Below are positions 31,401-48,687 of a DNA stretch of 64,000 bases, piece after piece. Where the stretch lies: the NCBI GenBank assembly GCA_964019135.1, contig OZ025256.1, forward strand, positions 21,459,911 through 21,523,910. The letters are read 5' to 3'. The position numbers and the translations under genes were made by a program. The DNA is from Arenicola marina (lineage: Eukaryota; Annelida; Polychaeta; Arenicolidae). Within the stretch, counting starts at the first letter, position 1. Every line of letters begins with the position of its first letter. The notes beneath the pieces are model-generated. The model was not told the origin of the DNA. It made no database searches and saw only the letters and a program-made list of their open reading frames with translations.

Positions 31401-34400
31401 GCGGTCTGACGTCATGTCCGTCTCTGTGCGTGGCGGTGATGACATTAGAGATGAAACGCCCTTGGGAGTCAAACATCTGCACTCGGTGGTTATCGCGATC
31501 GGCGACGAAGATGTTGCCGAAACGATCGACGCAAATCCCCATTGGATGCATAAAGCGTCCGTCTTGCGTTCCCATTTGACCAATCATGAGTCGCGGTTTG
31601 CCGCTGACGTCAAAGACTTTCACCATGTGATTGCCGTAGTCGGATACGATGAAGTCGCCGTTGGGAGCCGCTGCGGCGAAATACGGGCTCTTAAAATGGC
31701 GTCTTCCCCGGCTGCCTTTCTTGCCAAACTGCTTTAACATTTGTAGTTCCGAGTCGAAGACGTATACGCAATGTTTCCCGATGTCTGTGACCACTATATG
31801 ATTTGAGGCGGTGATTGCTATGCCATGGGGTTGGGAGTCCGCGCCAGCCTTAGTTTTCACAGAGCAAATGCCGGTCTCTCTCCCCGCCAATGACTCGAGC
31901 ACTCCAACCTGTACCTCCTGTGGTGTGAAGTCTTTTCTCATGGCTACAGCAATGTAACCTTCAGAGGTGATGTCAATGCAGCGACTGGGAAGTCTGTTTT
32001 CCTCTGACCCGTAAAACGGCTGTTGCGACAAAGTCTTTTCATATTTACCGGCCAGTGTAAAAACAGTAATCGTGCCGTTATCGTTGGACACAAGGATGTC
32101 ATCTGCTTTCGTCACGCACACCGATATCGGGTTAAATAACTCTTTACCGTGACTGCCCAACTTTGTCAAAAGCCTTGCGTTGATTCCGGGATTCTGTTTC
32201 TTCCCAAGTAAACTTTGATATGCATCCATGATGGAGCCGACATTAATAACCATATGATCTTTGGTCAGTTCGTTCCTCTTATGTGCTTTGGCGCATTCGT
32301 CACAGAGGAAACTCTCACACTTGATGCAGCAATACGTTGCTGGGATGGCATCGCCGCTTTCTCCACATAGATCGCAGTCCTGAAGTGCCTGCGTGTTGAT
32401 GATCGAAATCAAGTTCTGCAGGAGATTGTTGTCTGGCAGACCACTGACTCCCCGTTTTTTGGGCAAATCACAGACTTGTGTGCACAGTGGGCAGAAGAGC
32501 CCGATGGTACCGTCCTGACCCTTCTTACCGTGTTTGTCGACGTGAGTCACGAGGCACGCCTTGCAGAACGTGTGCAAACACGGCAGTGTCTTGGGCCGGT
32601 TGAACGGCTTTTTACAGATCTTGCATGTCAGGAAGTCTGATTGGATTTCGTTGGCCGCATGGGCAGACATTTTACCCGTTGGTTTTCACTCTGGATCGCT
32701 GCCATATGCGGTGTTTCTAGATCATGGATCGGTTGCCGTATGCCTTGGGTGCTCCAGATGTCACAAAGGTGGTTGGAATGCCTGCAGAGGAAAAATGGAA
32801 CAGTTATGAAGTTGAGCGCTTTTATATATTTTGTCGAAGAAGTGCGCCTCCGTTATAGGGGAAGGACGCCACATTCAGCACGAGCAATGTCAGCTTGAAG
32901 AAATTTTGACCCCAGGGGATCGGGGTAGGGACTATTACATTGGCTTATGATTCACCATCATTTCAACGCCCTGGTATATAATATACATGTTTAAACTTTA
33001 GGAAAATTTGATACACGAAGTCCAATATGCATTTTATGTTTTAACTCGAATGCTAGTCATATGCAAGACGCCTACGTTAAAAAAGAAAAATGCATTTGAT
33101 AACATTGGATGTTTGTACAGCCCATTTGACAAAATTAGATGTTTGTACAGCCCATTTGATAACATTAGATGTTTGTACAGCCCATTTGATAACATTAGAT
33201 GTCTGTACAGCCCATTTGATAACATTAGATGTTTGTACAGCCCATTTGATAACATTAGATGTTTGTACAGCCCATTTGATAACATTAGATGTTTGTACAG
33301 CCCATTTGATAACATTAGATGTTTGTACAGCAGATTGCCCACACAGGAAATAATCGACGTATAGACGTAGTCCATGAGCCATATTGGGGATTGAAATGAT
33401 TGACTAAAACCACTCGTATTCTTAATTAGACACTGTAATGCGTGAATGATCTGTGAGACATTGGACATGCCACACGCCCACCATTGGTATCCATGCTGTG
33501 AATCATCATTCGGTACGAGATTGTACATGTAGTTAGAAAAAACGATTGACAAAGACTCTCGCCATAATGCGCTTCATTGAAAACGTGTGCCACTCTTATT
33601 TTAAATAAATGTTGAACTGTGTGGATGATGGGCAAGATACTGGATAGGACGGAGTCGGTTGTCAACAATAACTTTATTATAATACACGTCCATCATTGCA
33701 ATTGGTATTAATATAAACCACAGGGATCATCAGGTGGTTGGAAATGCCTGCAGAGGAAAAATGGAACAGTTATGAAGTTGAGCGCTTTTATATATTTTGT
33801 CGAAGAAGTGCGCCTCCGTTATAGGGGAAGGACGCCACATTCAGCACGAGCAATGTCAGCTTGAAGAAATTTTGACCCCAGGGGATCGGGGTAGGGACTA
33901 TTACATTGGCTTATGATTCACCATCATTTCAACGCCCTGGTATATAATATACATGTTTAAACTTTAGGAAAATTTGATACACGAAGTCCAATATGCATTT
34001 TATGTTTTAACTCGAATGCTAGTCATATGCAAGACGCCTACGTTAAAAAAGAAAAATGCATTTGATAACATTGGATGTTTGTACAGCCCATTTGACAAAA
34101 TTAGATGTTTGTACAGCCCATTTGATAACATTAGATGTTTGTACAGCCCATTTGATAACATTAGATGTCTGTACAGCCCATTTGATAACATTAGATGTTT
34201 GTACAGCCCATTTGATAACATTAGATGTTTGTACAGCCCATTTGATAACATTAGATGTTTGTACAGCCCATTTGATAACATTAGATGTTTGTACAGCAGA
34301 TTGCCCACACAGGAAATAATCGACGTATAGACGTAGTCCATGAGCCATATTGGGGATTGAAATGATTGACTAAAACCACTCGTATTCTTAATTAGACACT

Positions 34401-37400
34401 GTAATGCGTGAATGATCTGTGAGACATTGGACATGCCACACGCCCACCATTGGTATCCATGCTGTGAATCATCATTCGGTACGAGATTGTACATGTAGTT
34501 AGAAAAAACGATTGACAAAGACTCTCGCCATAATGCGCTTCATTGAAAACGTGTGCCACTCTTATTTTAAATAAATGTTGAACTGTGTGGATGATGGGCA
34601 AGATACTGGATAGGACGGAGTCGGTTGTCAACAATAACTTTATTATAATACACGTCCATCATTGCAATTGGTATTAATATAAACCACAGGGATCATCAGG
34701 TGGTTGGAAATGCCTGCAGAGGAAAAATGGAACAGTTATGAAGTTGAGCGCTTTTATATATTTTGTCGAAGAAGTGCGCCTCCGTTATAGGGGAAGGACG
34801 CCACATTCAGCACGAGCAATGTCAGCTTGAAGAAATTTTGACCCCAGGGGATCGGGGTAGGGACTATTACATTGGCTTATGATTCACCATCATTTCAACG
34901 CCCTGGTATATAATATACATGTTTAAACTTTAGGAAAATTTGATACACGAAGTCCAATATGCATTTTATGTTTTAACTCGAATGCTAGTCATATGCAAGA
35001 CGCCTACGTTAAAAAAGAAAAATGCATTTGATAACATTGGATGTTTGTACAGCCCATTTGACAAAATTAGATGTTTGTACAGCCCATTTGATAACATTAG
35101 ATGTTTGTACAGCCCATTTGATAACATTAAATGTCTGTACAGCCCATTTGATAACATTAGATGTTTGTACAGCCCATTTGATAACATTAGATGTTTTTAC
35201 AGCCCATTTGATAACATTAGATGTTTGTACAGCCCATTTGATAACATTAGATGTCTGTACAGCCCATTTGATAACATTAGATGTTTGTACAGCCCATTTG
35301 ATAACATTAGATGTTTGTACAGCCCATTTGATAACATTAGATGTTTGTACAGCCCATTTGATAACATTAGATGTTTGTACAGCCCATTTGATAACATTAG
35401 ATGTTTGTACAGCCCATTTGATAACATTAGATGTTTGTACAGCAGATTTGATAACATTAGATGTTTGTACAGCCCATTTGATAACATTAGATGTTTGTAC
35501 AGCCCATTTGATAACATTAGATGTTTGTACAGCCCATTTGATAACATTAGATGTCTGTACAGCCCATTTGATAACATTAGATGTTTGTACAGCAGATTGC
35601 CCACTCAGGAAATAATCGACGTATAGACGTAGTCCATGAGCCATATTGGGGATTGAAATGATTGACTAAAACCACTCGTATTCTTAATTAGACACTGTAA
35701 TGCGTGAATGATCTGTGAGACATTGGACATGCCACACGCCCACCATTGGTATCCATGCTGTGAATCATCATTCGGTACGAGATTGTACATGTAGTTAGAA
35801 AAAACGATTGACAAAGACTCTCGCCATAATGCGCTTCATTGAAAACGTGTGCCACTCTTATTTTAAATAAATGTTGAACTGTGTGGATGATGGGCAAGAT
35901 ACTGGATAGGACGGAGTCGGTTGTCAACAATGACTTTATTATAATACACGTCCATCATTGCCATTGGTATTAATATAAACCACAGGGATCATCATTGATT
36001 AATGAGTTAATTATTAATGTGCCAACGATATCTCACTTTATCCTGAGATAAAGCATAATATTAAGGGCCAAATGCAGATATAAACCCACCTTTTCGCCTC
36101 TGAAATATTGACAATATTGGTGTCCACCAACGTCTGTCTGTCTCTTGTGTTCGTTCGACCCTGTACCGTCTGCTGGTGGGTGCCACAGGAATGCCATGCG
36201 CCGCGCTCTGTCACGGCTTGTCGTGCCGGTCGATTTCAGCTCTCTCCAGTGGGTGACACAGCCACTGACGTACCTTGCACCCCTTGGGACAAGTGACGCC
36301 GTCATGGGCACTGGCCGTCTCGCTTCAATGGGCATGTGGCCGGCAGTCTGCTAATCCCCTTGTCATTTCGGTATCAGTTTCGCAGATGGGTTGATAACCG
36401 GCGGTGCTCGTTCGTCTGCCTTATCATCTATGCATGATTGGTTACACAGTCTTGTTACCTTTAGTCGTATCCGCCCAAGATTTCCTTGGATCCACCGTGG
36501 TAATGAGGCAACTTTCCAGCCCCGTCTTCGCTGTCAATAAATATGACATCTGACATTGAAATCTTCCAGGTTTCCGAACTTTTGATCTTTATAAACATAT
36601 ATTTTAGTCAGAATTTTAGTCATAATGGAAAGTATCTTTAAGTTTAGATATTATTAGGAGTAGCCTATCAGGAGACTCATGCCGTTATCTGCAAATTAAG
36701 CCCTTAAATAACCCGGTTTTCTTTATTCAGACTCTTAACACACATATCGGTGTGGGCCTATTGTAAACCATTTTGTTGAAAAGGGATGGCCTTGAAATTA
36801 AAGTCAATGACAAATACACCGTTATGCCCTTTTATGGTATCATTAATACTTAATTAACAGAAACACGATATGTTTATATGCGTCTCCACGGTAACAGTGT
36901 AACGACGCGCCTGTATCTATCGATCCGTGAACGGTTTGTTTACGTGTGCTCTATCACCATAGCAACGTGGGCTTAGCGTTCGGCGCTCACCTGACGAATC
37001 AATAGACGCGTGGATTCTGGGCATGCAGCGTGCGGCGGCGTGACCATGAGGTTTCAGGTCCCGCCAAGACGGCAGGGGGATACCCGCCCCCCCTTCCCCC
37101 ACACTCCCACCCATCCAACGTCGTCTCGTGGTAATCTCGTGGGTGCGTCGACATTAGCATGAGCACCGATCTCCCGGCAGAGGGCGTTACGCTTGCGCCA
37201 TAGTCCGTGATATGATGAAACGAGCTCCCTCTGCTCTGCATGAGCACGTGGACCTCTTATAGAGACTTTAGTGGTCAAACACTCTTTCGTGAAGCGACGC
37301 CTGGGTGTTAACACAGTTAATACCTGTACCGGTCCATCTTCCAGCATCCCAGGGCCAGCAACAATATTGTCTGCTTATCTAAATTATCATCCAAGCCCAA

Positions 37401-40400
37401 AAATATTCTTGGACTACTTTTATTAAATTATGCGGACTGGACTATTTAAAAAGGGGCTCTCATGGCAAGGGAAATATAAATGCAATTCTTCGTCATATAT
37501 GGGATCAACTGTATACTGGATTGGTTAAGTGTAAATAATATACAGGTACATATATATGACTAGTCTGTTTTCGATATATTGGCCTTATTGTACCCTCTCA
37601 TTTTCTTGGGAGATTTTTGTCTACTGTGGTCTTTGTGTGGGCACAAATGGCCTGAAGTACCAATGTTTCCATTTCATTTTACATCTTACCTCAGGGACCG
37701 GTTCTGGCGTGGGAAGCTATATTCTAAGCTTACTTGAAGACGAATATCCAGATGTCTACAGGCAAGACAGAATATATTAACCTAATCGATGTTAAACCCG
37801 GTGTAACGACGTACCGGTATATTTCGATCTGTGAACAGCTTTGACTGGGCTTTGAATTGCGTTATGCAACTTCAACTGAATATGAGACATATCAAATAAG
37901 ACAGATTCAGAAGCTGATGTACTTGACGGCTGCGTCTTCGTAAGGCGATGGCGATTTTTCTATGACAGATCGCTTTTATTTTACGAAATTTACTCGCCTG
38001 CAATTCGGTAGAAAAGTCATTATGTATTCCATGAAACATGGCATTGGTTAAATAAATGATATTCTCTCTCTTTGACCGCAGCTTTTCGGAAAGCCGTAAC
38101 ATACAATGTCCACTACTTTTGTATTCGTCAAATAAATTGATTCCTCTGCCTTGTGGTGGCAGGTTCGTGACTGCAGTGTACCCCTCGGCGGACGACGACG
38201 TGGTCACCTCACCTTACAACAGCGTGCTCGCCATGCGGCAGCTGACGGAGCACGCCGACGGGGTGTTCCCTATCGAGAACCAGGTCAGTGTGGTCAGGAC
38301 CTAGGGTGGGGTTGGTGAAACCAGGCCAGTGTGATCAGGACTTGGGGTGAGGCTGGTGGTAACCAGGTCAGTGTGGTCAGGACTTGGGGTGCGGCTGGTG
38401 GAAACCAGGTCAGTGTGGTCAGGACATGGGGTGGGGTGGGATGGGGTGCTCCCCATTGAGAACCAGGTCAGTGGGGACAGATCATTGGGGTGGGGTGGGG
38501 TGCTCCCCATCGAGAACCAGGTCTGTGGGGACAGGTCATTGGGGTGGGGTGGGGTGTTCCCCATCGAGAACCAGGTCAGTGGGGATAGATCATTGGGGTG
38601 GGGTGGGGTGCTCCCCATCGAGAACCAGGTCAGTGGGGACAGATCATTGGGGTGGGGTGGGGTGCTCCCCATCGAGAACCAGGTCAGTGGGGACAGGTCA
38701 TTGGGGTGGGGTGGGGTGTTCCCCATCGAGAAACAGGTCAGTGGGGACAGATCATTGGGGTGGGGTGGGGTGCTCCCCATCGAGAACCAGGTCAGTGGGG
38801 ACAGGTCATTGGGGTGGGGTGGGGTGCTCCCCATCGAGAATCAGGTCAGTGGGGACAGATCATTGGGGTGGGGTGGGGTGTTCCCCATCGAGAATCAGGT
38901 CAGTGGGGACAGATTATTGGGGTGGGGTGGGGTGCTCCCCATCGAGAACCAGGTCAGTGGGGACAGGTCATAGGGGTGGGGTGAGGTGCTCCCCATCGAG
39001 AACCAGGTCAGTGGGGATAGATCATTGGGGTGGGGTGGGGTGCTCCCCATCGAGAATCAGGTCAGTGGGGACAGATCATTGGGGTGGGGTGGGGTGCTCC
39101 CCATCGAGAACCAGGTCAGTGGGGACAGATCATTGCGGTGGGTGGGGTGCTCCCCATCGAGAACCAGGTCAGTGTGGTCAGGACTTGGGATGGGTTTTCT
39201 GGAAACCAGGTCAGTGTGGTCAAAACTTGTCATAGATTTATTGGAAACCAGGTCAGTGTGGTAAGGACTGGGTGGGGATGGTGGAAACCAGGTCAGTATG
39301 GTCAGAATTTGGGGTGCAGCAGGTGGAAACCAGCTCAACGTGGTCAGGACTTGGGGTGGGACTAGTGGACACTAGGTCAGTGTGGTCAAAACTAGCCTAG
39401 CCGCATTAATTGCCCAACAGAGGGCCCAACAGCCGGCCATGTTCGCTGGAACCAGCCTGCGTTATGTGGGCATGATGATTGGTCCGGAAGTTTTTGCCAC
39501 GTTAGAGAAATAAAAACTTAAAAATGAAAAATTCAGGCCTTTCAACTCCGGCTTGAAACCTCCTCAGTCGTTGATTCTACAACAAGAAATCTGGTGGAAC
39601 AACGTTTATGAGTGCGTGTTTCTTCGCTGTGTTGCTTAAGTAGTATATCTGAAATTGTATGTGGCAGGCCCTGGCAGACCTGGTGGGTAAGATTGGCCTG
39701 GCACTCCCAGCAGAGAAGACAGGTAAGAGGACGTACGGCCCTGGGGCGCTGGGGGCGGGCAGCAGGGTCAAGGCCGAGAGCGCCCTGACCGCCCACACCG
39801 GGGGCCTAACCAAGACCAAGGACGAGAGACCATTCGACAGCATGAACAACATCGCCGCCAACTTACTCCTTAACATGACCAGGTAATATGTGAGGCTTTT
39901 TGAAATATTTTTTACTGTTGACCTCATTTGAGTAGACGTCACTGCATTGACCTCGCCGCCTTATTAAACGGGAACCAGTCCGTCCACAGAATGGACTTGC
40001 TAGATCTGGACCGAGAACCAGCCTAGCTGCATTAATGGCCCAACAGATGGCCCAACCAGCCTGCTTTATGTCGACTTGATGATTGGTCCGGGACCCGGCA
40101 GTTTTTGCCACGGTAAAGAAATTAAGTAAAACAAATAAATTCAGGCCTGTCATCTTCGGACTGAAATCTCCTCAGTCGTTGATTCTACAAGTAAAAGAAA
40201 TCTGGTGTGACAACGTTATGAGTCCGTGTTTATTCGTTGTGTTCTTTAAATAGTATATCAGTTATTCTGTAAAAGGGGAACTATTACGTTTTGATGTAAA
40301 TATAGAACCACTCAATTTACATGCAAATACCATCGCTATGGGTGTGATTTCATTACATGCATAACAACTAATTGCTATTACGAAGATTTTCGTCATATGT

Positions 40401-43400
40401 CGGTCCGTCGTGTTGGTATGTTTGTTTACTGGTTCGTTTATTGTTATTGTCCTTTCTGGTGTCTCACAGTTCGGCGAGATTCGAGGGCTCACTGAACGTT
40501 GACTTGAACGAGATAACGATGAATCTGGTGCCGTTTCCCAAACTGCACTACCTGGTGACAAGTCAGACTCCCCTCTATGCCCTGGCTGACATCAAGGTGC
40601 CCTCGAGAAGGTGCGTGGTTATAGCTTCGACCCGGCGTGTTCGTCCAATACATCGCTCCGTGTGCACCTTGAGGGCCGCCATAGCTCAGTGGGTTAAGGC
40701 CCTCGCATTGAGCGCTCTGGATAAAGCGTCCTGAATACGTTGTATACATCTATCCTGTGCACCTTAAGCACTACCCAATTCATAGTTTGCGAACACTGGG
40801 TTAAGTCGATGACTAGTAAATGTAAAATTACCTTCTGACCAGTAAATGGTAAACTACCCGCTGACCAGTACATAGTAGATGACCAGCTGACCAGTACATA
40901 GTAAATGACACGCTGTCCCGTAAATAGTAAATGCACCGCTGACCAGTAAATAGTAAATGACCCGCTGACCAGTAAATAGTAAATGACCCGCTGACCGGTA
41001 AATAGTAAATGACCCGCTGACCTTTAAATAGTAAATTACCCCCTGACCAGTAAATAGTAAATAGCGCGCTGACCACTGAATAGTAAATGACCCGCTGACC
41101 AGTAAGGAGTAAGTGACCCGCTGACCAGTAAAGAGTAAATGGCCCGCTGACCAGTAAATAGTAAATGACCCGCTGACCAGTAAATAGTAAATGAACTGCT
41201 GACCGGTAAATAGTAAATGGCCCGCTGACCAGTAAATAGTAAATGACCCGCTGACCAGTAAAGGGTAAATGACCCGCTGACTAGTAAATAGTAAATGACC
41301 CGCTGACCAGTGAAGAGTAAATGGCCCGCTGACCAGTGAAGAGTAAATGACCCGCTGACCAGTGAAGAGTAAATGACCCGCTGACCAGTGAATAGTAAAT
41401 GACCCGCTGCCTAGTAAATAGTAATGACCCGCTGACCAATAAACAGTAAATGACCCGCTGACCAGTAAAGAGTAAATGACCCGCTGACCAGTAAATAGTA
41501 AATGACCCGCTGACCAGTAAAGACTAAATGACCCGCTGACCAGTAAAGACTAAATGACCCGCTGACCAGTAAATAGTAAATGACCCGCTGACCAGTAAAG
41601 AGTAAATGACCCGCTGACCAGTAAAGAGTAAATGACCCGCTGACCAGTAAAGACTAAATGACCCGCTGACCAGTAAAGACTAAATGGCCCGCTAACCAGT
41701 AAAGAGTAAATGACCCGCTGACCAGTAAAGAGTTAATGACCCGCTGACCAGTAGATAGTAAATGACCCGCTGACCAATAAAGAGTAAATGACCCGCTGAC
41801 CAGTAAAGAGTTAATGATCCGCTGACCAGTAAAGAGTAAATGACCCGCTAACCAGTAGATAGTAAATGACCCGCTGACCAGTAAAGAGTTAATGATCCGC
41901 TGACCAGTAAAGAGTAAATGACCCGCTAACCAGTAATAGTAAAGGACCCGCTGACCAGTAAGGAGTAAATGACCCGCTAACCAGTAATAGTAAAGGACCC
42001 GCTGACCAGTAAATAGTAAATGACCCGCTGACCAGTAATAGTAAATGACCCGCTGACCAGTAAATAGTAAGTGACACGCTGACCAGTAAGGAGTAAATAA
42101 CCCGCTGACCAGTGAAGAGTAAATGACCCGCTGACCAGTAAATAGTAAATAGCCCGCTGACCAGTGAATAGTGAATGACCCGCTGACAAGAAAATAATAA
42201 ATGAACCGCTGACCAGTGAAGAGTAAATGACCTGCTGACCAATAAACAGTAAATGAACCGCTGACCAGTGAAGAGTAAATGAACCGCTGACCAGTAAATA
42301 GTAAATGAACCGCTTACCAGTAAATAGTAAATGACCTGCTGACCAATAAACAGTAAATGAACCGCTGACCAGTGAAGAGTAAATGACCCGCTGACAAGTA
42401 AATAGTAAATGACCCGCTGACCAGTAATAGTAAATGACCCGCTAACCAGTAATAGTAAATGACCCGCTAACCAGTAAAGAGTAAATGATCCGCTGACCAG
42501 TAGATAGTAAATGACCCGCTGACCAGTAAGGAGTAAATGACCCGCTGACCAGTAAAGAGTAAATGGCCCGCTGACCGGTAAATAGTAAATGACCCGCTGA
42601 CCAGTAAACAGTAAATGACCCGCTGACCAGTAAAGAGTTAATGACCCGCTGACCAGTAAATAGTAAATGACCCGCTGACCAGTAATAGTAAATGACCCGC
42701 TGACCTTTAAATAGTAAATTACCCCCTGACCAGTAAATAGTAAATAGCGCGCTGACCACTGAATAGTAAATGACCCGCTGACCAGTAAGGAGTAAGTGAC
42801 CCGCTGACCAGTAAAGAGTAAATGGCCCGCTGACCAGTAAATAGTAAATGACCCGCTGACCAGTAAATAGTAAATGAACTGCTGACCGGTAAATAGTAAA
42901 TGGCCCGCTGACCAGTAAATAGTAAATGACCCGCTGACCAGTGAAGAGTAAATGACCCGCTGACCAGTAAAGGGTAAATGACCCGCTGACTAGTAAATAG
43001 TAAATGACCCGCTGACCAGTGAAGAGTAAATGGCCCGCTGACCAGTAAATAGTAAATGACCCGCTGACCAGTGAAGAGTAAATGACCCGCTGACCAGTGA
43101 ATAGTAAATGACCCGCTGCCTAGTAAATAGTAAATGACCCGCTGACCAATAAACAGTAAATGACCCGCTGACCAGTAAAGAGTAAATGACCCGCTGACCA
43201 GTAAATAGTAAATGACCCGCTGACCAGTAAAGACTAAATGACCCGCTGACCAGTAAAGACTAAATGACCCGCTGACCAGTAAATAGTAAATGACCCGCTG
43301 ACCAGTAAAGAGTAAATGACCCGCTGACCAGTAAAGAGTAAATGACCCGCTGACCAGTAAAGACTAAATGACCCGCTGACCAGTAAAGACTAAATGGCCC

Positions 43401-46400
43401 GCTAACCAGTAAAGAGTAAATGACCCGCTGACCAGTAAAGAGTTAATGACCCGCTGACCAGTAGATAGTAAATGACCCGCTGACCAATAAAGAGTAAATG
43501 ACCCGCTGACCAGTAAAGAGTTAATGATCCGCTGACCAGTAAAGAGTAAATGACCCGCTAACCAGTAGATAGTAAATGACCCGCTGACCAGTAAAGAGTT
43601 AATGATCCGCTGACCAGTAAAGAGTAAATGACCCGCTAACCAGTAATAGTAAAGGACCCGCTGACCAGTAAGGAGTAAATGACCCGCTAACCAGTAATAG
43701 TAAAGGACCCGCTGACCAGTAAATAGTAAATGACCCGCTGACCAGTAATAGTAAATGACCCGCTGACCAGTAAATAGTAAGTGACACGCTGACCAGTAAG
43801 GAGTAAATAACCCGCTGACCAGTGAAGAGTAAATGACCCGCTGACCAGTAAATAGTAAATAGCCCGCTGACCAGTGAATAGTGAATGACCCGCTGACAAG
43901 TAAATAATAAATGAACCGCTGACCAGTGAAGAGTAAATGACCTGCTGACCAATAAACAGTAAATGAACCGCTGACCAGTGAAGAGTAAATGAACCGCTCC
44001 GCTAACCAGTAAATAGTAAATGAACCGCTTACCAGTAAATAGTAAATGACCTGCTGACCAATAAACAGTAAATGAACCGCTGACCAGTGAAGAGTAAATG
44101 ACCCGCTGACAAGTAAATAGTAAATGACCCGCTGACCAGTAATAGTAAATGACCCGCTAACCAGTAATAGTAAATGACCCGCTAACCAGTAAAGAGTAAA
44201 TGATCCGCTGACCAGTAGATAGTAAATGACCCGCTGACCAGTAAATAGTAAATGACCCGCTGACCAGTAATAGTAAATGACCCGCTGACCAGTAAATAGT
44301 AAGTGACACGCTGACCAGTAAGGAGTAAATAACCCGCTGACCAGTGAAGAGTAAATGACCCGCTGACCAGTAAACAGTAAATTACCCGCTGACCAGTAAA
44401 TAGTAAATGACCCGCTGACCAGTAAATAGTAAATGACCCGCTGACCAGTGAAGAGTAAATGACCCGCTGACAAGTAAATAGTAAATGACCCGCTGACCAG
44501 TAAATAGTAAATGACCCGCTGACCAGTGAAGAGTAAATGACCCGCTGACAAGTAAATAGTAATGACCCGCTGACCAGTGAAGAGTAAATGACCCGCTGAC
44601 AAGTAAATAATAAATGAACCGCTGACCAGTGAAGAGTAAATGACCTGCTGACCAATAAACAGTAAATGAACCGCTGACCAGTGAAGAGTAAATGAACCGC
44701 TCCGCTAACCAGTAAATAGTAAATGAACCGCTTACCAGTAAATAGTAAATGACCTGCTGACCAATAAACAGTAAATGAACCGCTGACCAGTGAAGAGTAA
44801 ATGACCCGCTGACAAGTAAATAGTAAATGACCCGCTGACCAGTAATAGTAAATGACCCGCTAACCAGTAATAGTAAATGACCCGCTAACCAGTAAAGAGT
44901 AAATGATCCGCTGACCAGTAGATAGTAAATGACCCGCTGACCAGTAAATAGTAAATGACCCGCTGACCGGTAATAGTAAATGACCCGCTGACCAGTAAAT
45001 AGTAAGTGACACGCTGACCAGTAAGGAGTAAATAACCCGCTGACCAGTGAAGAGTAAATGACCCGCTGACCAGTAAACAGTAAATTACCCGCTGACCAGT
45101 AAATAGTAAATGACCCGCTGACCAGTAAATAGTAAATGACCCGCTGACCAGTGAAGAGTAAATGACCCGCTGACAAGTAAATAGTAAATGACCCGCTGAC
45201 CAGTAAATAGTAAATGACCCGCTGACCAGTGAAGAGTAAATGACCCGCTGACAAGTAAATAGTAATGACCCGCTGACCAGTGAAGAGTAAATGACCCGCT
45301 GACAAGTAAATAGTGAATGACCCGCTGACCAGTGAAGAGTAAATGACCCGCTGACCAGTAAATAGTAAATGACCCGCTGACCAGTGAAGAGTAAATGACC
45401 CGCTGACAAGTAAATAGTAAATGACCCGCTGACCAGTAAATAGTAAATGACCCGCTGACCAGTGAAGAGTAAATGACCGGCTGACCAGTAAATAGTAAAT
45501 GACCCGCTGACCAGTGAAGAGTAAATGACCCGCTGACCAGTAAATAGTAAATGACCCGCTGACCAGTAAACAGTAAATGACCCGCTGACAAGTAAATAGT
45601 AAATGACCCGCTGACCAGTAAATAGTAAATGACCCGCTGACCAATAAATAGTAAATGACCCGCTGACCAGTGAAGAGTAAATGACCCGCTGACAAGTAAA
45701 TAGTAAATGACCCGCTGACCAGTAATAGTAAATAACCCGCTAACCAGTAATAGTAAATGACCCGCTAACCAGTAAAGAGTAAATGATCCGCTGACCAGTA
45801 ATAGTAAATGACCCGCTGACCAGTAATAGTAAATGACCCGCTGACCAGTAAATAGTAAAGGACCCGCTGACCAGTAATAATAAATGACCCGCTAACCAGT
45901 AATAGTAAAGGACCCGCTGACCAGTAAGGAGTAAATGACCCGCTGACCAGTAAAGAGTTAATGACCCGCTGACCAGTAAATAGTAAATGACCCGCTGACC
46001 AGTAATAGTAAATGACCCGCTGACCAGTAAATAGTAAGTGACACGCTGACCAGTAAGGAGTAAATAACCCGCTGACCAGTAATAGTAAATGACCCGCTGA
46101 CCAGTAATAGTAAATGACCCGCTGACCAGTAAATAGTAAAGGACCCGCTGACCAGTAATAATAAATGACCCGCTAACCAGTAATAGTAAAGGACCCGCTG
46201 ACCAGTAAGGAGTAAATGACCCGCTGACCAGTAAAGAGTTAATGACCCGCTGACCAGTAAATAGTAAATGACCCGCTGACCAGTAATAGTAAATGACCCG
46301 CTGACCAGTAAATAGTAAGTGACACGCTGACCAGTAAGGAGTAAATAACCCGCTGACCAGTGAAGAGTAAATGACCCGCTGACCAGTAAACAGTAAATTA

Positions 46401-48687
46401 CCCGCTGACCAGTAAATAGTAAATGACCCGCTGACCAGTAAATAGTAAATGACCCGCTGACCAGTAAAGATTAAATGACCCGCTGACCAGTAAACAGTAA
46501 ATTACCCGCTGACCAGTAAATAGTAAATGACCCGCTGACCAGTAAAGATTAAATGACCCGCTGACCAGTAAACAGTAAATGACCCGCTGACCAGTAAACA
46601 GTAAATTACCCGCTGACCAGCAAATAGTGAATGTAAAATTATACCCTAGTTTCTTTTCGATAGTCAACTTTTTCATTTTGGTTTACAGGTGTGTCGCAAT
46701 TGAATCTCGTTGGGGTCTTTGTAACGATACCTAAAGATTTGTTTCCTATAAGGATCATATTTAACACCCTTTGCCCATCTTGTATCACTTGGTTCTTTTA
46801 AAAACACACCAGTTTCTCTCACGTACACCACATCCGTGCTTGCCTGAACAACCTTTCATTTATTCATTCTTTGTACATTCATGAACAATCTTTTATTTAT
46901 TCATTAGTAATATTGATTTAAATAGGTTTGCAACGACGTCTAATGCCGTTTTCGTTTCTTCCCAGACTTGACCAGATGTTTTCGGACGCGTTCTCCCGCG
47001 ACCACCAGCTGCTCCGTGCTGACCCCAAGCACGGCCTCTACCTGGCGTGCGCCCTCATGGTGCGTGGCAACGTCCAGATCTCCGACATCAGGAGAAACAT
47101 CGACAGGTAAATTCATCTTTCTTCGTTTCCATCTTTCCATGTTGGTACAGGAAGATATGGCATTAGGCAGATACCGCACATTTGACCAATAATCATATTT
47201 GAGTTAATTTAAAGATGAATAAAATGTTTCCATTTACTTTTAAATATGGTTTCACGACGATATTATACTTTGCGATATGTTCCTTGATGCATTATCAAAA
47301 TATTTCCCCAAGCAAGGAACTATCGTTAAAACTCGTTAAGCTGCCACTTTGCTCTACAATCATCAATGATATAATTTTATATCAAGATCATTTTATATGA
47401 TGAGACACTATACCTTTGACAATCTCCATCAGGAGCTCTGTAAATCTGGGTGAATTAAAGCATGGTGCGACATCCAGCGAGCTGGGGCAAAGCATTGGCA
47501 GTCTTGACCCTTCCTGACGTTCAATGACTATCCGTATGGTATCTTGTACCAGGTTACAGCCCTCCCTGCAGTTCATCCACTGGAACCAGGAGGGTTGGAA
47601 GACGGGGCTGTGTTCCGTTCCCCCTGTCGGACATCCTTACTCGCTACTCACCATGGCAAATAACACGTGCATCAGGAACAACTTCGTCGACCTCCGGGAT
47701 CGCTTCTTCAAGCTGTACAAGAGAAAGGTCAGCAGAGGGTCATTCTCCGTATGGTGTATCATAAAGGCCAACGTAGGATCATTCTCCGTATGGTGTATCA
47801 TAAAGGCCAACGTAGGACCATTCTCCGTATGGTGTATCATAAAGGCCAACGTAGGACCATTCTCCGTATGGTGTATCATAAAGGCCAACGTAAGACCATT
47901 CTCCGTATGGTGTATCATAAAGGCCAACGTAAGACCATTCTTCGTATGGTGTATCATAAAGGCCAACGTAGGATCATTCTCCGTATGGTGTATCATATAG
48001 GCCAACGTAGGACCATTCTCCGTATGGTGTATCATAAAGGCCAACGTAAGACCATTCTTCGTATGGTGTATCATAAAGGCCAACGTAGGATCATTCTCCG
48101 TATGGTGTATCATATAGGCCAACGTAGGACCATTCTCCGTATGGTGTATCATAAAGGCCAACGTAGTAACATATTTGTTGATAAGATGATGGAAATCTAG
48201 ATATGTTTGGTGTAAGTTGAACATCTGCGTCATGAGGGCCAACTTAGAAATGTTTTAACGTATGACGTAATAATGGATATTCTGATATTTTAGCTTTAAG
48301 TGAAATACATTAAATACAATCTCTGTTAAATCACTATATGAATATTGACCTCTCATTACGATACAGAACCATGTGAGTATTCACCTTTTTCTGGATCTGT
48401 TTGCGTAGTATATTGGTCAAAATGTGGGCCCGGGTAGTATATGACGCAGTCAAATCACGTGTAATAGTATAAGTGGATTCCTTGGCTCAAAACGACTCCT
48501 ACAGATTTCTATTTTCCTTTCGTTTTAGGCCCACATGCATCATTACACCCACATAGACACGATGGAAATATCGGATTTCCAAGAAAGTCTGGAGTCGCTT
48601 AACTTCCTCATCTCGGAATATGGCTCTTTAGATAAACAGAGGCTTCAGCCTCCAGAGCCGGTGCCGAGGCTTCAAATTGCCACTTGA
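22408..48687 (+). CDS. TUBE1: Epsilon-tubulin, complete, twelve exons
   Basis: Centriole/basal-body tubulin needed for triplet microtubule stability with delta-tubulin. Exons: 22408-22432 (MTQSIIVQ), 23074-23147, 23473-23592, 23973-24088, 24383-24504, 37695-37761, 38163-38283, 39668-39882, 40470-40610, 46966-47106, 47553-47727 and 48529-48687 (TGA). Phases close throughout, giving about 491 residues (human 475). Visible: [37 protein letters not shown] joined to [18 protein letters not shown] (the tubulin GTP-binding signature, split by intron 5), [83 protein letters not shown]. All introns are GT-AG except intron 6, which starts GC (AG|GCAAGA). Exon 8 holds a longer Gly/Ala/Lys-rich stretch than human. 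Intron 5 (13.2 kb) contains two antisense RING-NHL genes. Introns 7, 9 and 11 contain minisatellites. An out-of-frame upstream ORF starts at 22227; the start at 22408 is fixed by homology. Confidence 0.96.
22622..22761. mobile_element. 140-bp MITE with TTGGCGC ends and 9-bp target duplication
   Basis: It begins TTGGCGCAAGTGACCCCAGG and ends GCTGGCGCCAA, and is flanked by a perfect 9-bp duplication GTGTTTAAC (22613-22621 and 22762-22770). The right half also carries GGGGTACCCCCAGGCAAGCC, which echoes the left end. The ends and the duplication length match the 729-bp element at 59818-60546, so they belong to one family. A 9-bp duplication is typical of Mutator-like transposons, though no transposase is present. 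It lies in TUBE1 intron 1. Confidence 0.85.
24505..25987. other. TUBE1 intron 5, left part: nothing recognisable
   Basis: AT-rich DNA between TUBE1 exon 5 and the 3' end of the first nested RING-NHL gene. Short open frames have no motif, and no repeat family was recognised. Confidence 0.5.
25988..27643 (-). CDS. RING-NHL protein without B-box (TRIM-NHL-like), intronless, nested in TUBE1 intron 5
   Basis: Single-exon 551-residue protein, probably an E3 ubiquitin ligase. An N-terminal acidic Ser/Pro segment (1-35) leads to a C3HC4 RING: C42-C45, C57-H59, C62-C65, C83-C86 ([16 protein letters not shown]). Residues ~140-260 are a Pro/Arg/Ser-rich, probably disordered linker with PxxP stretches such as RPPTRPPLP and PPKPPRQ. 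From ~275 to the end there are six NHL-type repeats ([76 protein letters not shown]), which would close a six-bladed propeller. No B-box and no coiled coil are visible, unlike TRIM2/3/71. The nearest family is the metazoan TRIM2/3/32/56/71-like RING-NHL group; exact orthology is not resolvable here. The frame is open and GC-richer than the intron around it. It is antisense to TUBE1 and a diverged neighbour of the 31072-32670 gene. Confidence 0.9.
   Translation of the reverse strand: MDDMASAPPAETADPDSPSSVDVSGDPAANVIEKIKNDCLTCRICHGTYARPKALPCLHTFCLQCLSDYIFSRAYESLGKFPCPLCRADVDYPKSGAEALPDNHLVINLQDAICNGTLPPDYVYRKLYPTLSLEDLKLDAAQEEASRPPTRPPLPSQDQGGRTLGRGQRLTPTQPSRPAPPARAAPPKPPRQMRAESPTPSSPGHPRNGQPNQTNVSPGSQATIRNSPRGHNSPRVVANSARPDPPPRPSLQRRLVISGSAYPIPMETKRHGADISFGRYGTDLTDFTTPVGLAVSPEGYIVVSDERQNRVFVFEQNGTLKTMFTCQGHIHDVAVNKTGHLYVANSDARESMVICYNLRGQRLSSFGNFFTYEKPHGIAVKSSGQVVVSSTETNLVYTLAGQDGKLLQKFLGKGKDFKNLRYPYHVAVTGKDLIVVSDHDNDCVKIFDTFGKCKVQFGKRGKKPGELRTPRGVCVDSSDNIVVADYGNRRVQVFSRKGEFLGVAMAIGREEFDNSGSPLNVAMSDFNSKLVVLVRGANFAQVRVYKYKFSK
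27644..30740. other. TUBE1 intron 5 between the two RING-NHL genes: no further gene
   Basis: Contains the upstream region of the first nested gene, the GCAGTAGCGGATCAC cluster at 28831-29695, and G-rich runs near 28494 and 30512. Open frames are short and without motifs. Confidence 0.5.
28831..29695. repeat. Cluster of direct and inverted GCAGTAGCGGATCAC motifs
   Basis: AGGCAGTAGCGGATCAC occurs at 28831-28847 and 29026-29042, with AGGCAGTAACGGATCAC at 29006-29022. Inverted forms occur at about 29275-29292 (CACTGATCCGCTACTGC) and 29659-29695 (GTGATCCGCTAC followed by GTGATACGTTACTGCC). Six near-identical 15-mers in under 900 bp, three per orientation, are not expected by chance. They could be remains of a nested fold-back element or a binding-site cluster. 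Confidence 0.6.
30741..30746 (-). promoter_or_regulatory. Candidate poly(A) signal of the second nested RING-NHL gene
   Basis: AATAAA on the minus strand (within AAAATAAAATTATTTTGCC), about 330 nt past the stop codon at 31072-31074. Inferred from position only. Confidence 0.35.
30752..30932. repeat. Two-copy ~90-bp tandem repeat
   Basis: Two adjacent units share ACACAATTCAATGTGATG, GCAAATTTAAA, TCTTCTTGATA and TAAAAATATTAATAA followed by CAACAATCTTGTGAT. It lies just downstream (3') of the 31072-32670 gene, within its likely 3' flank. Confidence 0.75.
31072..32670 (-). CDS. RING-B-box-NHL protein with C-terminal CaaX box, intronless, nested in TUBE1 intron 5
   Basis: Single-exon 532-residue protein of the TRIM-NHL type, probably an E3 ubiquitin ligase. 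RING: C16-C19, C31-H33, C36-C39, C60-C63 ([17 protein letters not shown]). B-box: C99-C102, C115-C118, C123-C126, H130, H139 ([27 protein letters not shown]). Only ~45 residues lie between the B-box and the propeller, so the usual long coiled coil is missing. Six NHL-like repeats span ~180-445 ([57 protein letters not shown]). The hydrophilic Gln/Lys-rich tail ends QVCVIL: a CaaX box with X = Leu, which predicts geranylgeranylation and membrane attachment. The NHL part is clearly related to the 25988-27643 protein, but the two have diverged far. It is antisense to TUBE1. A TATA box lies about 150 bp upstream, inside a unit that is repeated three times. Confidence 0.92.
   Translation of the reverse strand: MSAHAANEIQSDFLTCKICKKPFNRPKTLPCLHTFCKACLVTHVDKHGKKGQDGTIGLFCPLCTQVCDLPKKRGVSGLPDNNLLQNLISIINTQALQDCDLCGESGDAIPATYCCIKCESFLCDECAKAHKRNELTKDHMVINVGSIMDAYQSLLGKKQNPGINARLLTKLGSHGKELFNPISVCVTKADDILVSNDNGTITVFTLAGKYEKTLSQQPFYGSEENRLPSRCIDITSEGYIAVAMRKDFTPQEVQVGVLESLAGRETGICSVKTKAGADSQPHGIAITASNHIVVTDIGKHCVYVFDSELQMLKQFGKKGSRGRRHFKSPYFAAAAPNGDFIVSDYGNHMVKVFDVSGKPRLMIGQMGTQDGRFMHPMGICVDRFGNIFVADRDNHRVQMFDSQGRFISNVITATHRDGHDVRPQDVALTTYGHLVVLLKGIEGVNIAEVRVYQYGSRVSQAESAAPAIAGFTPLQRETTRGKKQSAKEGPNQDGQSEDQKQNAMAAPDLLMYTKDGYNITSKDLNSQVCVIL
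32819..32828 (-). promoter_or_regulatory. TATA box, gene-proximal copy
   Basis: TATATAAAAG on the minus strand, about 150 bp upstream of the ATG at 32670 of the RING-B-box-NHL gene. A start site about 30 bp downstream (near 32790) would leave a ~120-nt leader, a normal length. It lies within copy 1 of the 966-bp unit. Confidence 0.6.
33091..33340. repeat. 30-bp minisatellite, 8 units (copy 1)
   Basis: Unit: CCCATTTGATAACATTAGAT followed by GTTTGTACAG. The first two units are variants (TGCATTTGAT..TTGGAT; CCCATTTGACAAAATTAGAT) and the last ends in CAGATTGCCC. The same variant order recurs in copy 2. Confidence 0.95.
33785..33794 (-). promoter_or_regulatory. TATA box, duplicated copy 2
   Basis: The same TATATAAAAG 966 bp further from the gene, with its flanks unchanged. 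Whether it starts transcripts is unknown; a transcript from here would run through the minisatellite of copy 1 before the gene. Confidence 0.45.
34057..34306. repeat. 30-bp minisatellite, 8 units (copy 2)
   Basis: It has the same units in the same order as 33091-33340, including the single GTCTGTACAG variant in the fourth position. Confidence 0.95.
34751..34760 (-). promoter_or_regulatory. TATA box, duplicated copy 3
   Basis: Third TATATAAAAG in the tandem units, 1,932 bp beyond the gene-proximal one. Confidence 0.45.
35023..35600. repeat. 30-bp minisatellite, ~19 units (copy 3, expanded)
   Basis: It is the same family as the arrays at 33091 and 34057, but with about eleven extra units and private variants (AACATTAAAT, GTTTTTACAG, an internal AGCAGATTTGATAAC). 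Copy 3 alone has expanded, so the array is unstable in length. Confidence 0.95.
35995..37694. other. TUBE1 intron 5, right part, with two RFX-like X-boxes
   Basis: No gene is seen. GTCTCCACGGTAAC (36882-36895) and ATCACCATAGCAAC (36953-36966) are close to the RFX X-box consensus GTnnCCATrGnAAC and lie about 70 bp apart in a GC-richer patch (36880-37340). A ~40-bp similarity links GTGTAACGACG..CGATCCGTGAACGG near 36897 with the same pattern near 37800. Confidence 0.4.
38284..39400 (+). repeat. Minisatellite built from the exon 7 / intron 7 junction of TUBE1
   Basis: About 14 units of 54 bp (roughly 38447-39170) each contain CCCCATCGAGAACCAG followed by GTCAGTGGGGACAG and GGGGTGGGGTGGGG. They are flanked on both sides by related ~42-bp units (CCAGGTCAGTGTGGTCAGGA). 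The real exon ends TTCCCTATCGAGAACCAG and its intron starts GTCAGTGTGG, so each unit copies the last ~16-20 exon bases plus the 5' splice site. Each 54-bp unit holds four runs of four or more G on the sense strand, enough for one quadruplex. A TAG at 38302-38304 stops the exon frame just inside the intron. Confidence 0.95.
39395..39655 (+). repeat. Direct repeat left of TUBE1 exon 8 (partner at 40009-40275)
   Basis: Shares CAGCCTGC.TTATGT, TGATGATTGGTCCGG, GTTTTTGCCACG, AATTCAGGCCT, CTCCTCAGTCGTTGATTCTA and AGTAGTATATC-type sequence with 40009-40275 in the same order and orientation. It ends just before the acceptor of exon 39668-39882. Confidence 0.85.
40009..40275 (+). repeat. Direct repeat right of TUBE1 exon 8 (partner at 39395-39655)
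   Basis: Second copy, diverged by substitutions and small indels, in intron 8. The two copies bracket exon 8, 610 bp apart. Recombination between them would delete exon 8 exactly; exon 8 is 215 nt, so the frame would be lost. Confidence 0.85.
40671..40755 (+). mobile_element. 85-bp internally deleted SINE with 10-bp target duplication
   Basis: The head GAGGGCCGCCATAGCTCAGT and GGGTTAAGGCCCTCGCATTG is joined directly to the tail GGATAAAGCGTCCTGAATA; the B box and body found in 12079-12319 are missing. It is flanked by TGTGCACCTT at 40661-40670 and 40756-40765. It lies 60 bp past the 5' splice site of TUBE1 exon 9. Confidence 0.85.
40800..46635. repeat. 5.8-kb 26-bp satellite in TUBE1 intron 9, with higher-order structure
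   Basis: About 220 units of GACCAGTAAATAGTAAATGA + CCCGCT, with recurring variants (AAAGAG, GAAGAG, AAGGAG, AATAG with one A missing). Blocks of units are themselves repeated: the odd GACCTTTAAATAGTAAATTA unit recurs after 1,683 bp (41021, 42704), the odd GAACCGCTCCGCTAACC recurs after ~703 bp (43991, 44694), and a block near 45797 recurs after ~276 bp. Minus-strand open frames of up to 437 codons run through it, but they are low-complexity translations of the repeat and not genes. Confidence 0.97.
47728..48172 (+). repeat. 39-bp minisatellite starting at the 5' splice site of TUBE1 exon 11
   Basis: About eleven units of AGGCCAACGTAGGACCATTC + TCCGTATGGTGTATCATAA. The array begins within ~15 nt of the exon 11 / intron 11 junction (AGAAAG|GTCAGCAGAGG) and occupies the first ~440 bp of the intron. 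Open frames on both strands follow from 39 being divisible by three. Confidence 0.95.

Follow-up and report, generated by a model that had tools for sequence, protein, structure and literature searches.

The 64-kb stretch of DNA analysed here (64,000 nucleotides, hereafter the window) contains the gene TUBE1, and the question which it raises is why intron 7 of this gene opens with an array of sites identical or nearly identical to the intron's own donor (5' splice site), many of them preceded by a copy of the end of exon 7. Minisatellites spanning an exon-intron boundary have been named mirages in amphioxus, where they are reported from Adh3, BflGb6 and BflGb9 (PMC3087553; this and the other papers cited were drawn on in part). 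A likeness to these, suggested in a preliminary description of the window, agrees with that report in name and kind, since the TUBE1 array repeats an exon end together with its 5' splice site. The array is probably a mirage, that is, a minisatellite which grew from the exon 7/intron 7 junction and was enlarged later, the first donor presumably being the one used.

The array at the start of TUBE1 intron 7

Exon 7 (121 nt, positions 38163 to 38283 of the forward strand, on which all TUBE1 features lie; terminal bases GGGGTGTTCCCTATCGAGAACCAG) was identified by tblastn with a human TUBE1 sequence, its match to the Pfam family Tubulin when taken alone (E 1.5e-6, 29.0 bits) being below the cut-off of 33. 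The TUBE1 homology bridges intron 7 (38284 to 39667; …FPIENQ / ALADLVGK…) into exon 8, which begins at 39668 and ends at 39882. The exon number is that of the preliminary description and is consistent if the first exon, which was not located, lies upstream of 23073. The true 5' splice site is CAG/GTCAGT (38281 to 38289), the intron opening with GTCAGT at 38284. Exon 7 and the pattern of the exact junction each have hits at a single locus, on a 43-Mb contig, in the assembly searched (867 Mb in 762 contigs), and no second haplotype of the TUBE1 locus was found there with these two queries. According to the list of repeats in the window, intron 7 is the only one of the ten TUBE1 introns with a placed donor in which an array spans that donor. 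The end of exon 6 is apparently CTACAG/GCAAGA (37756-37767), which would make the following intron a GC-AG intron.

With a maximum of three mismatches, AACCAGGTCAGT has 24 matches, namely the true donor, one hit out of register and 22 donor-anchored repeat units after exon 7, from 38284 to approximately 39393; the earlier estimate was about twenty copies. The minisatellite is compound, with units of roughly 42 bp followed by 54-bp units and again by units of roughly 42 bp (Tandem Repeats Finder: 42 bp x 3.7, 38278-38433; 54 bp x 13.9, 38432-39181; 42 bp x 5.5, 39162-39388). The upstream block (38284 to 38442) has little beyond AACCAG in common with the exon end. In the central block (38443 to 39167) the 24-nt exon tail is present 14 times at a spacing of 54 bp, except for a last step of 53, and these tails run into GTCAGT (13 copies) or GTCTGT (one copy). 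The downstream block (39168 to 39393) is the more diverged of the flanks, with 74 % matches compared with 88 % upstream, versus 94 % in the 54-bp centre.

The preliminary description had every unit carrying (TTCCC)CATCGAGAACCAG and every decoy equal to the real donor, and both statements hold for part of the array. The word decoy, used there for the copied donors, implies that these would compete in splicing. Identity with the exon tail is 21-23 of 24 bases in 14 of the 22 units, in which the 24-nt tail of exon 7 and the intron start stand together across the boundary; the other eight match at 10-12 of 24 positions, chiefly in the last six bases, and lack the motif claimed. The units have YTCCCC, compared with TTCCCT in the exon. 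The exact 9-mer of the donor, CAGGTCAGT, is kept in 18 of the 22 units and differs in four, so that AG/GT signals are present in many units but not in all, as in mirages. This 9-mer occurs 20 times in the window (the true junction, 18 copies in the array and one at position 1638), whereas in 100 shuffles the mean was 0.44 and the maximum 3. The motif GGGGTG is common to exon 7 (38260-38265) and the array unit.

In the frame of exon 7 the first stop is the TAG at 38302-38304, 18 nt past the donor, as had been noted. Splicing from a decoy beyond this point would bring the TAG into the message, and the reading frame would then close at 38302, in line with the truncation expected earlier. The acceptor of intron 7, TGTGGCAG, which ends at 39667, lies 274 nt past the array and is unlike any unit. 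Recursive-splicing (ratchet) sites consist of AG/GT preceded by a polypyrimidine tract, and the TUBE1 units, which read GGGGTGCTCCCCATCGAGAACCAG/GT, are without a good tract of this kind.

The anatomy suggests an order of events. A tandem duplication over the donor would have produced units of roughly 42 bp, made up of the last six exon bases and the start of the intron. The 54-bp unit has the appearance of a 42-bp one with the final 24 bases of exon 7 joined to it at GGGGTG; unequal exchange or slippage at this common motif may later have made the join, after which the product multiplied in mid-array. There were apparently two or more captures of the exon end, six bases first and 24 later, and the 54-bp core is probably younger than the 42-bp flanks because the outer units are more diverged. 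The copies would be nearly harmless, provided that the exon-proximal donor is normally used and all that follows it is intron; mRNAs derived from a decoy would include the stop codon at 38302 and undergo degradation. Growth of this kind has probably taken place at several genes of the genome.

Other repeats accompany the array in the window. Between the array and the acceptor, the end of intron 7 (39390-39649) is 75 % identical to a stretch of intron 8 (40016-40259), perhaps a transposable element. Intron 9 is mostly filled by a 26-bp satellite of approximately 225 copies (40810-46633), and intron 5 (33093-35593) contains a 30-bp array three times at a spacing of 966 bases. Another array (39 bp x 10.9, from 47741; region 47728-48166) begins 13 bases past the donor at 47728, and its unit has CCGTATGGT in common with the end of intron 10.

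Mirages at other genes and their frequency

Beyond TUBE1, ten cases were found in the genome, nine on the donor side, of which two are less certain, and one on the acceptor side. Four of the seven donor-motif arrays listed on contig C1 start at recognisable exon ends. These belong to alpha-aminoadipic semialdehyde synthase (AASS; 41 bp x 138; PDB match, E 3.4e-18), to an exon which we take to be of ALDH1L1 type (39 bp, approximately 135 copies, from L014 4784 to 10000, the end of the fetched stretch; Pfam Aldedh, E 7.1e-8), to an exon of lustrin type (34 bp x 13.5, each unit including no more than about three bases of the exon; Pfam E 3.1e-5, under the cut-off) and to histidine ammonia-lyase (HAL; 22 bp x 21, units with approximately 16 bases of the exon; E 4.5e-17 against PDB). 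The preceding HAL intron carries a 46 bp x 10 array with 21 exon bases, so that two consecutive introns of this gene open with a mirage (L018 3992-4459 and 4776-5232). For two of the remaining C1 arrays (1.09 and 1.76 Mb) no exon was found in the flanking DNA examined, and the array at 0.85 Mb lies near, without spanning it, the acceptor of an exon on the other strand, presumably an ETS-domain exon.

The frequency of such arrays was approached with a genome-wide motif pattern, three AGGTVAGT spaced 23-53 bases on either strand, which counts matches rather than arrays and gives lower bounds. The donor pattern had at least 39,221 matches and its reversed control at least 16,479; with four other controls of the same composition (at least 12,810, 14,413, 5,907 and 4,344) the donor motif was above all five. 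At a spacing of 53-83 bases there were at least 41,282 matches, versus at least 17,103 for the control. Among the matches listed, six distinct donor-motif arrays lay in the first 1.94 Mb of C1, a seventh coming from the longer spacing, and the first control gave 10 distinct arrays in 9.67 Mb and the second eight in 17.9 Mb, four of these eight, between 15.97 and 16.04 Mb, being perhaps one cluster. An acceptor-like motif had at least 380 matches versus at least 288 when reversed. Minisatellites are abundant in any case, with 69 arrays in the window and 18 fetched stretches of 10 kb, some of which were chosen for their arrays.

As a sample not chosen for repeats, the best 20 of 77 myosin-head family matches, by E-value, were viewed from 40 bases inside the exon to 260 bases into the intron, around the 3' end of each match. 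Arrays spanned the donor in two of the 20, one with a 62-bp unit including 37 exon bases (L051), the other with a 37-bp unit consisting of a C-run and ACAG, 12 exon bases and GTACGT (L058; G000:C7:32813879-32814178, minus strand). Each L058 copy resembles a complete 12-nt micro-exon; as regards recursive-splicing sites, its C-run and ACAG stand ahead of the 12-nt block and GT. Arrays began at about +4 and +22 of two further donors, and in the 300-base view of the remaining 16 no array of about three copies was seen. None of the 20 acceptors was spanned, although several introns hold arrays further off and the exon may begin elsewhere than at some of these upstream ends. In the 13 aldehyde-dehydrogenase loci, all those obtained, with some donors assigned by eye, no array spanned the exon's own donor, but in four an array began within 25 bases after it, and two of the four loci form a duplicated gene pair. 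In both samples together, own donors were strictly spanned in 2 of 33. The aldehyde-dehydrogenase view also took in mirages in neighbouring introns: a certain one in L036 (minus strand, oriented ~1006-1229; 48 bp x 5.5), a very likely one at L033, the true exon of which lies outside the fetched stretch, and an acceptor-side mirage of approximately 34 copies (L037 7-1487), the unit of which, …TTTCAG/TGACGTGGAC, repeats the exon start.

All seven independent array starts in the two samples fell between -40 and +25 of the donor; counting arrays with at least about three copies, none was seen to start from +26 to +260. Two-copy repeats, present at +70 in L042 and as small repeats in L049, L050 and L060, were excluded from this count. 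The most favourable figure for such clustering is (66/301)^7 = 2.4e-5, the zone having been set after viewing the data, several aldehyde-dehydrogenase donors having been placed by eye and late starts being hidden in 300-base myosin fragments; it becomes approximately 4e-4 if starts are detectable only to +160. These counts are a strong hint that array starts cluster at donors. That 5' splice sites are hot spots of tandem duplication in an annelid lineage, where a sizeable minority of introns would open with an array of their own donor, is put forward tentatively, as a proposal with rather less than an even chance.

In the exon frame the ALDH1L1-type array is open for 576 nt and the 48-bp ALDH array (L036) for 264 nt, so use of a decoy there would insert repeats instead of stopping translation at once, and both could be mistaken for coding repeats by gene predictors. 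Selection for unit lengths divisible by three was considered, being compatible with TUBE1 (54, 42), ALDH1L1 (39) and L036 (48), and was dropped because AASS (41), lustrin (34), HAL (46/22), ALDH9-like (67) and myosin (62/37) units are not multiples of three.

Explanations of the array

Growth as a mirage of little consequence accounts for the unit anatomy and for its recurrence, and several points weigh against it. In the human IFI6 (6-16) minisatellite two downstream repeat donors are used, giving different mRNAs (PMC4526556, citing Turri 1995), which means that decoys need not be silent. The raw motif-match counts are lower bounds dominated by long arrays. The clustering of array starts at donors, moreover, has no obvious explanation in neutral growth alone. 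A cause could be supplied by donor-linked mutation, in which R-loops, nicking or short homology around AGGT at transcribed donors would seed extra tandem duplications; this is compatible with growth as a mirage and is a reasonable possibility, though one that we would not bet on. It would fit the clustering itself, the excess of the donor motif over each control, the absence of spanned acceptors among the 20 myosin matches and the small excess of the acceptor-like motif. With an array start at or within 25 bases of 4 of 20 donors versus 0 of 20 acceptors spanned, however, p = 0.11, the samples being small and the comparison not quite like with like, and one acceptor mirage is known (L037). Selection could yield an equal asymmetry by removing acceptor duplications: on the plainest account a duplicated donor would be tolerated, splicing being from the first copy, and a duplicated acceptor would more often upset splicing.

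The repeated donors might instead be kept for a function, such as docking U1 snRNP against premature polyadenylation, increasing splicing or producing regulated poison isoforms. The 18 intact decoys of TUBE1 and the repeat donors used in IFI6 speak for this, as does the lower variability of the decoy 9-mer columns, compared with the rest of the unit, in five of seven arrays (TUBE1, AASS, ALDH1L1, ALDH9-like and lustrin), but the HAL-a and 48-bp ALDH arrays show the opposite trend. In a rank test based on circular shifts, p was 0.19 (9-mer) and 0.08 (GT) over the seven arrays, and 0.76 and 0.52 in the three not found through the donor motif. The decoys are thus without significant constraint, and maintenance for function is unlikely. 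A model put forward for amphioxus globins (PMC3087553), by which intron 7 itself would be young and made by tandem duplication of an exon segment bearing AGGT, requires both intron ends to derive from the unit; the acceptor 274 nt beyond the array matches none, so duplication of the unit did not make both ends, and the model is very improbable here. An ordinary intronic minisatellite resembling the exon end by chance, or an assembly artefact, might be considered since minisatellites are abundant, but with 24-base tails near-identical in 14 units, a single locus on a 43-Mb contig and recurrence at unrelated genes, either is very improbable. Growth from the junction as a mirage is the explanation that we retain.

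Host lineage and comparison with known systems

Mirages have been reported from cephalochordates, which describes their range and is not part of their definition; the genome here has an annelid mitochondrial gene order. Contig 762 is mitochondrial, with a COX1 match containing 13 TGA codons and ten further frames matching mitochondrial Pfam families. The order, on one strand, is cox1-cox2-cox3-(nad6)-cob-atp6-nad5-nad4L-nad4-nad1-nad3-nad2, where nad6 was placed by position only and nad2 by position together with a match to a general antiporter domain. This order and the single strand fit the annelid pattern, in which nad6/cob follow cox3, atp6 lies between cob and nad5, nad5 precedes nad4L/nad4 and nad3 lies between nad1 and nad2 (PMC2639372). 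No report of an annelid mirage was found in one open-licence literature collection, and, within that scope, mirages in a genome of annelid mitochondrial order, their frequency and the array length at some genes appear to be new. Their presence at several genes of such a genome suggests that mirages originate in distant animals and can be common, and it makes both the choice of the first among many near-identical donors and the proneness of junctions to tandem duplication testable at scale. If donors are hot spots, the genome would be a natural experiment in which the spliceosome must choose one among tens to more than 100 such donors.

The arrays resemble amphioxus mirages (PMC3087553) in having many units with AG/GT signals and in occurring on both donor and acceptor sides, and unit lengths overlap (10-72 bp in amphioxus Adh3, 22-67 bp here). 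Some are far longer (approximately 138 units in AASS) than the BflGb6 haplotypes of 3 and 6 units. Annelid intronic minisatellites are also present in intron 1 of earthworm metallothionein, where units average 178 and 181 bp and for which the text consulted mentions no copy of a splice junction (PMC12783039). Intron gain by duplicated AG/GT proto-splice sites (Rogers, cited in PMC3087553) likewise involves tandem duplication with a splice signal, but the acceptor of the TUBE1 intron lies outside the repeat. Like the IFI6 minisatellite (PMC4526556), the TUBE1 array lies at a donor and provides several donor sites; unlike in IFI6, a TUBE1 decoy beyond 38302 would add a TAG. RT-PCR suggests regular splicing at the amphioxus mirages (PMC3087553), and TUBE1 may be spliced either regularly, as there, or with use of repeat donors, as in IFI6, both being possible.
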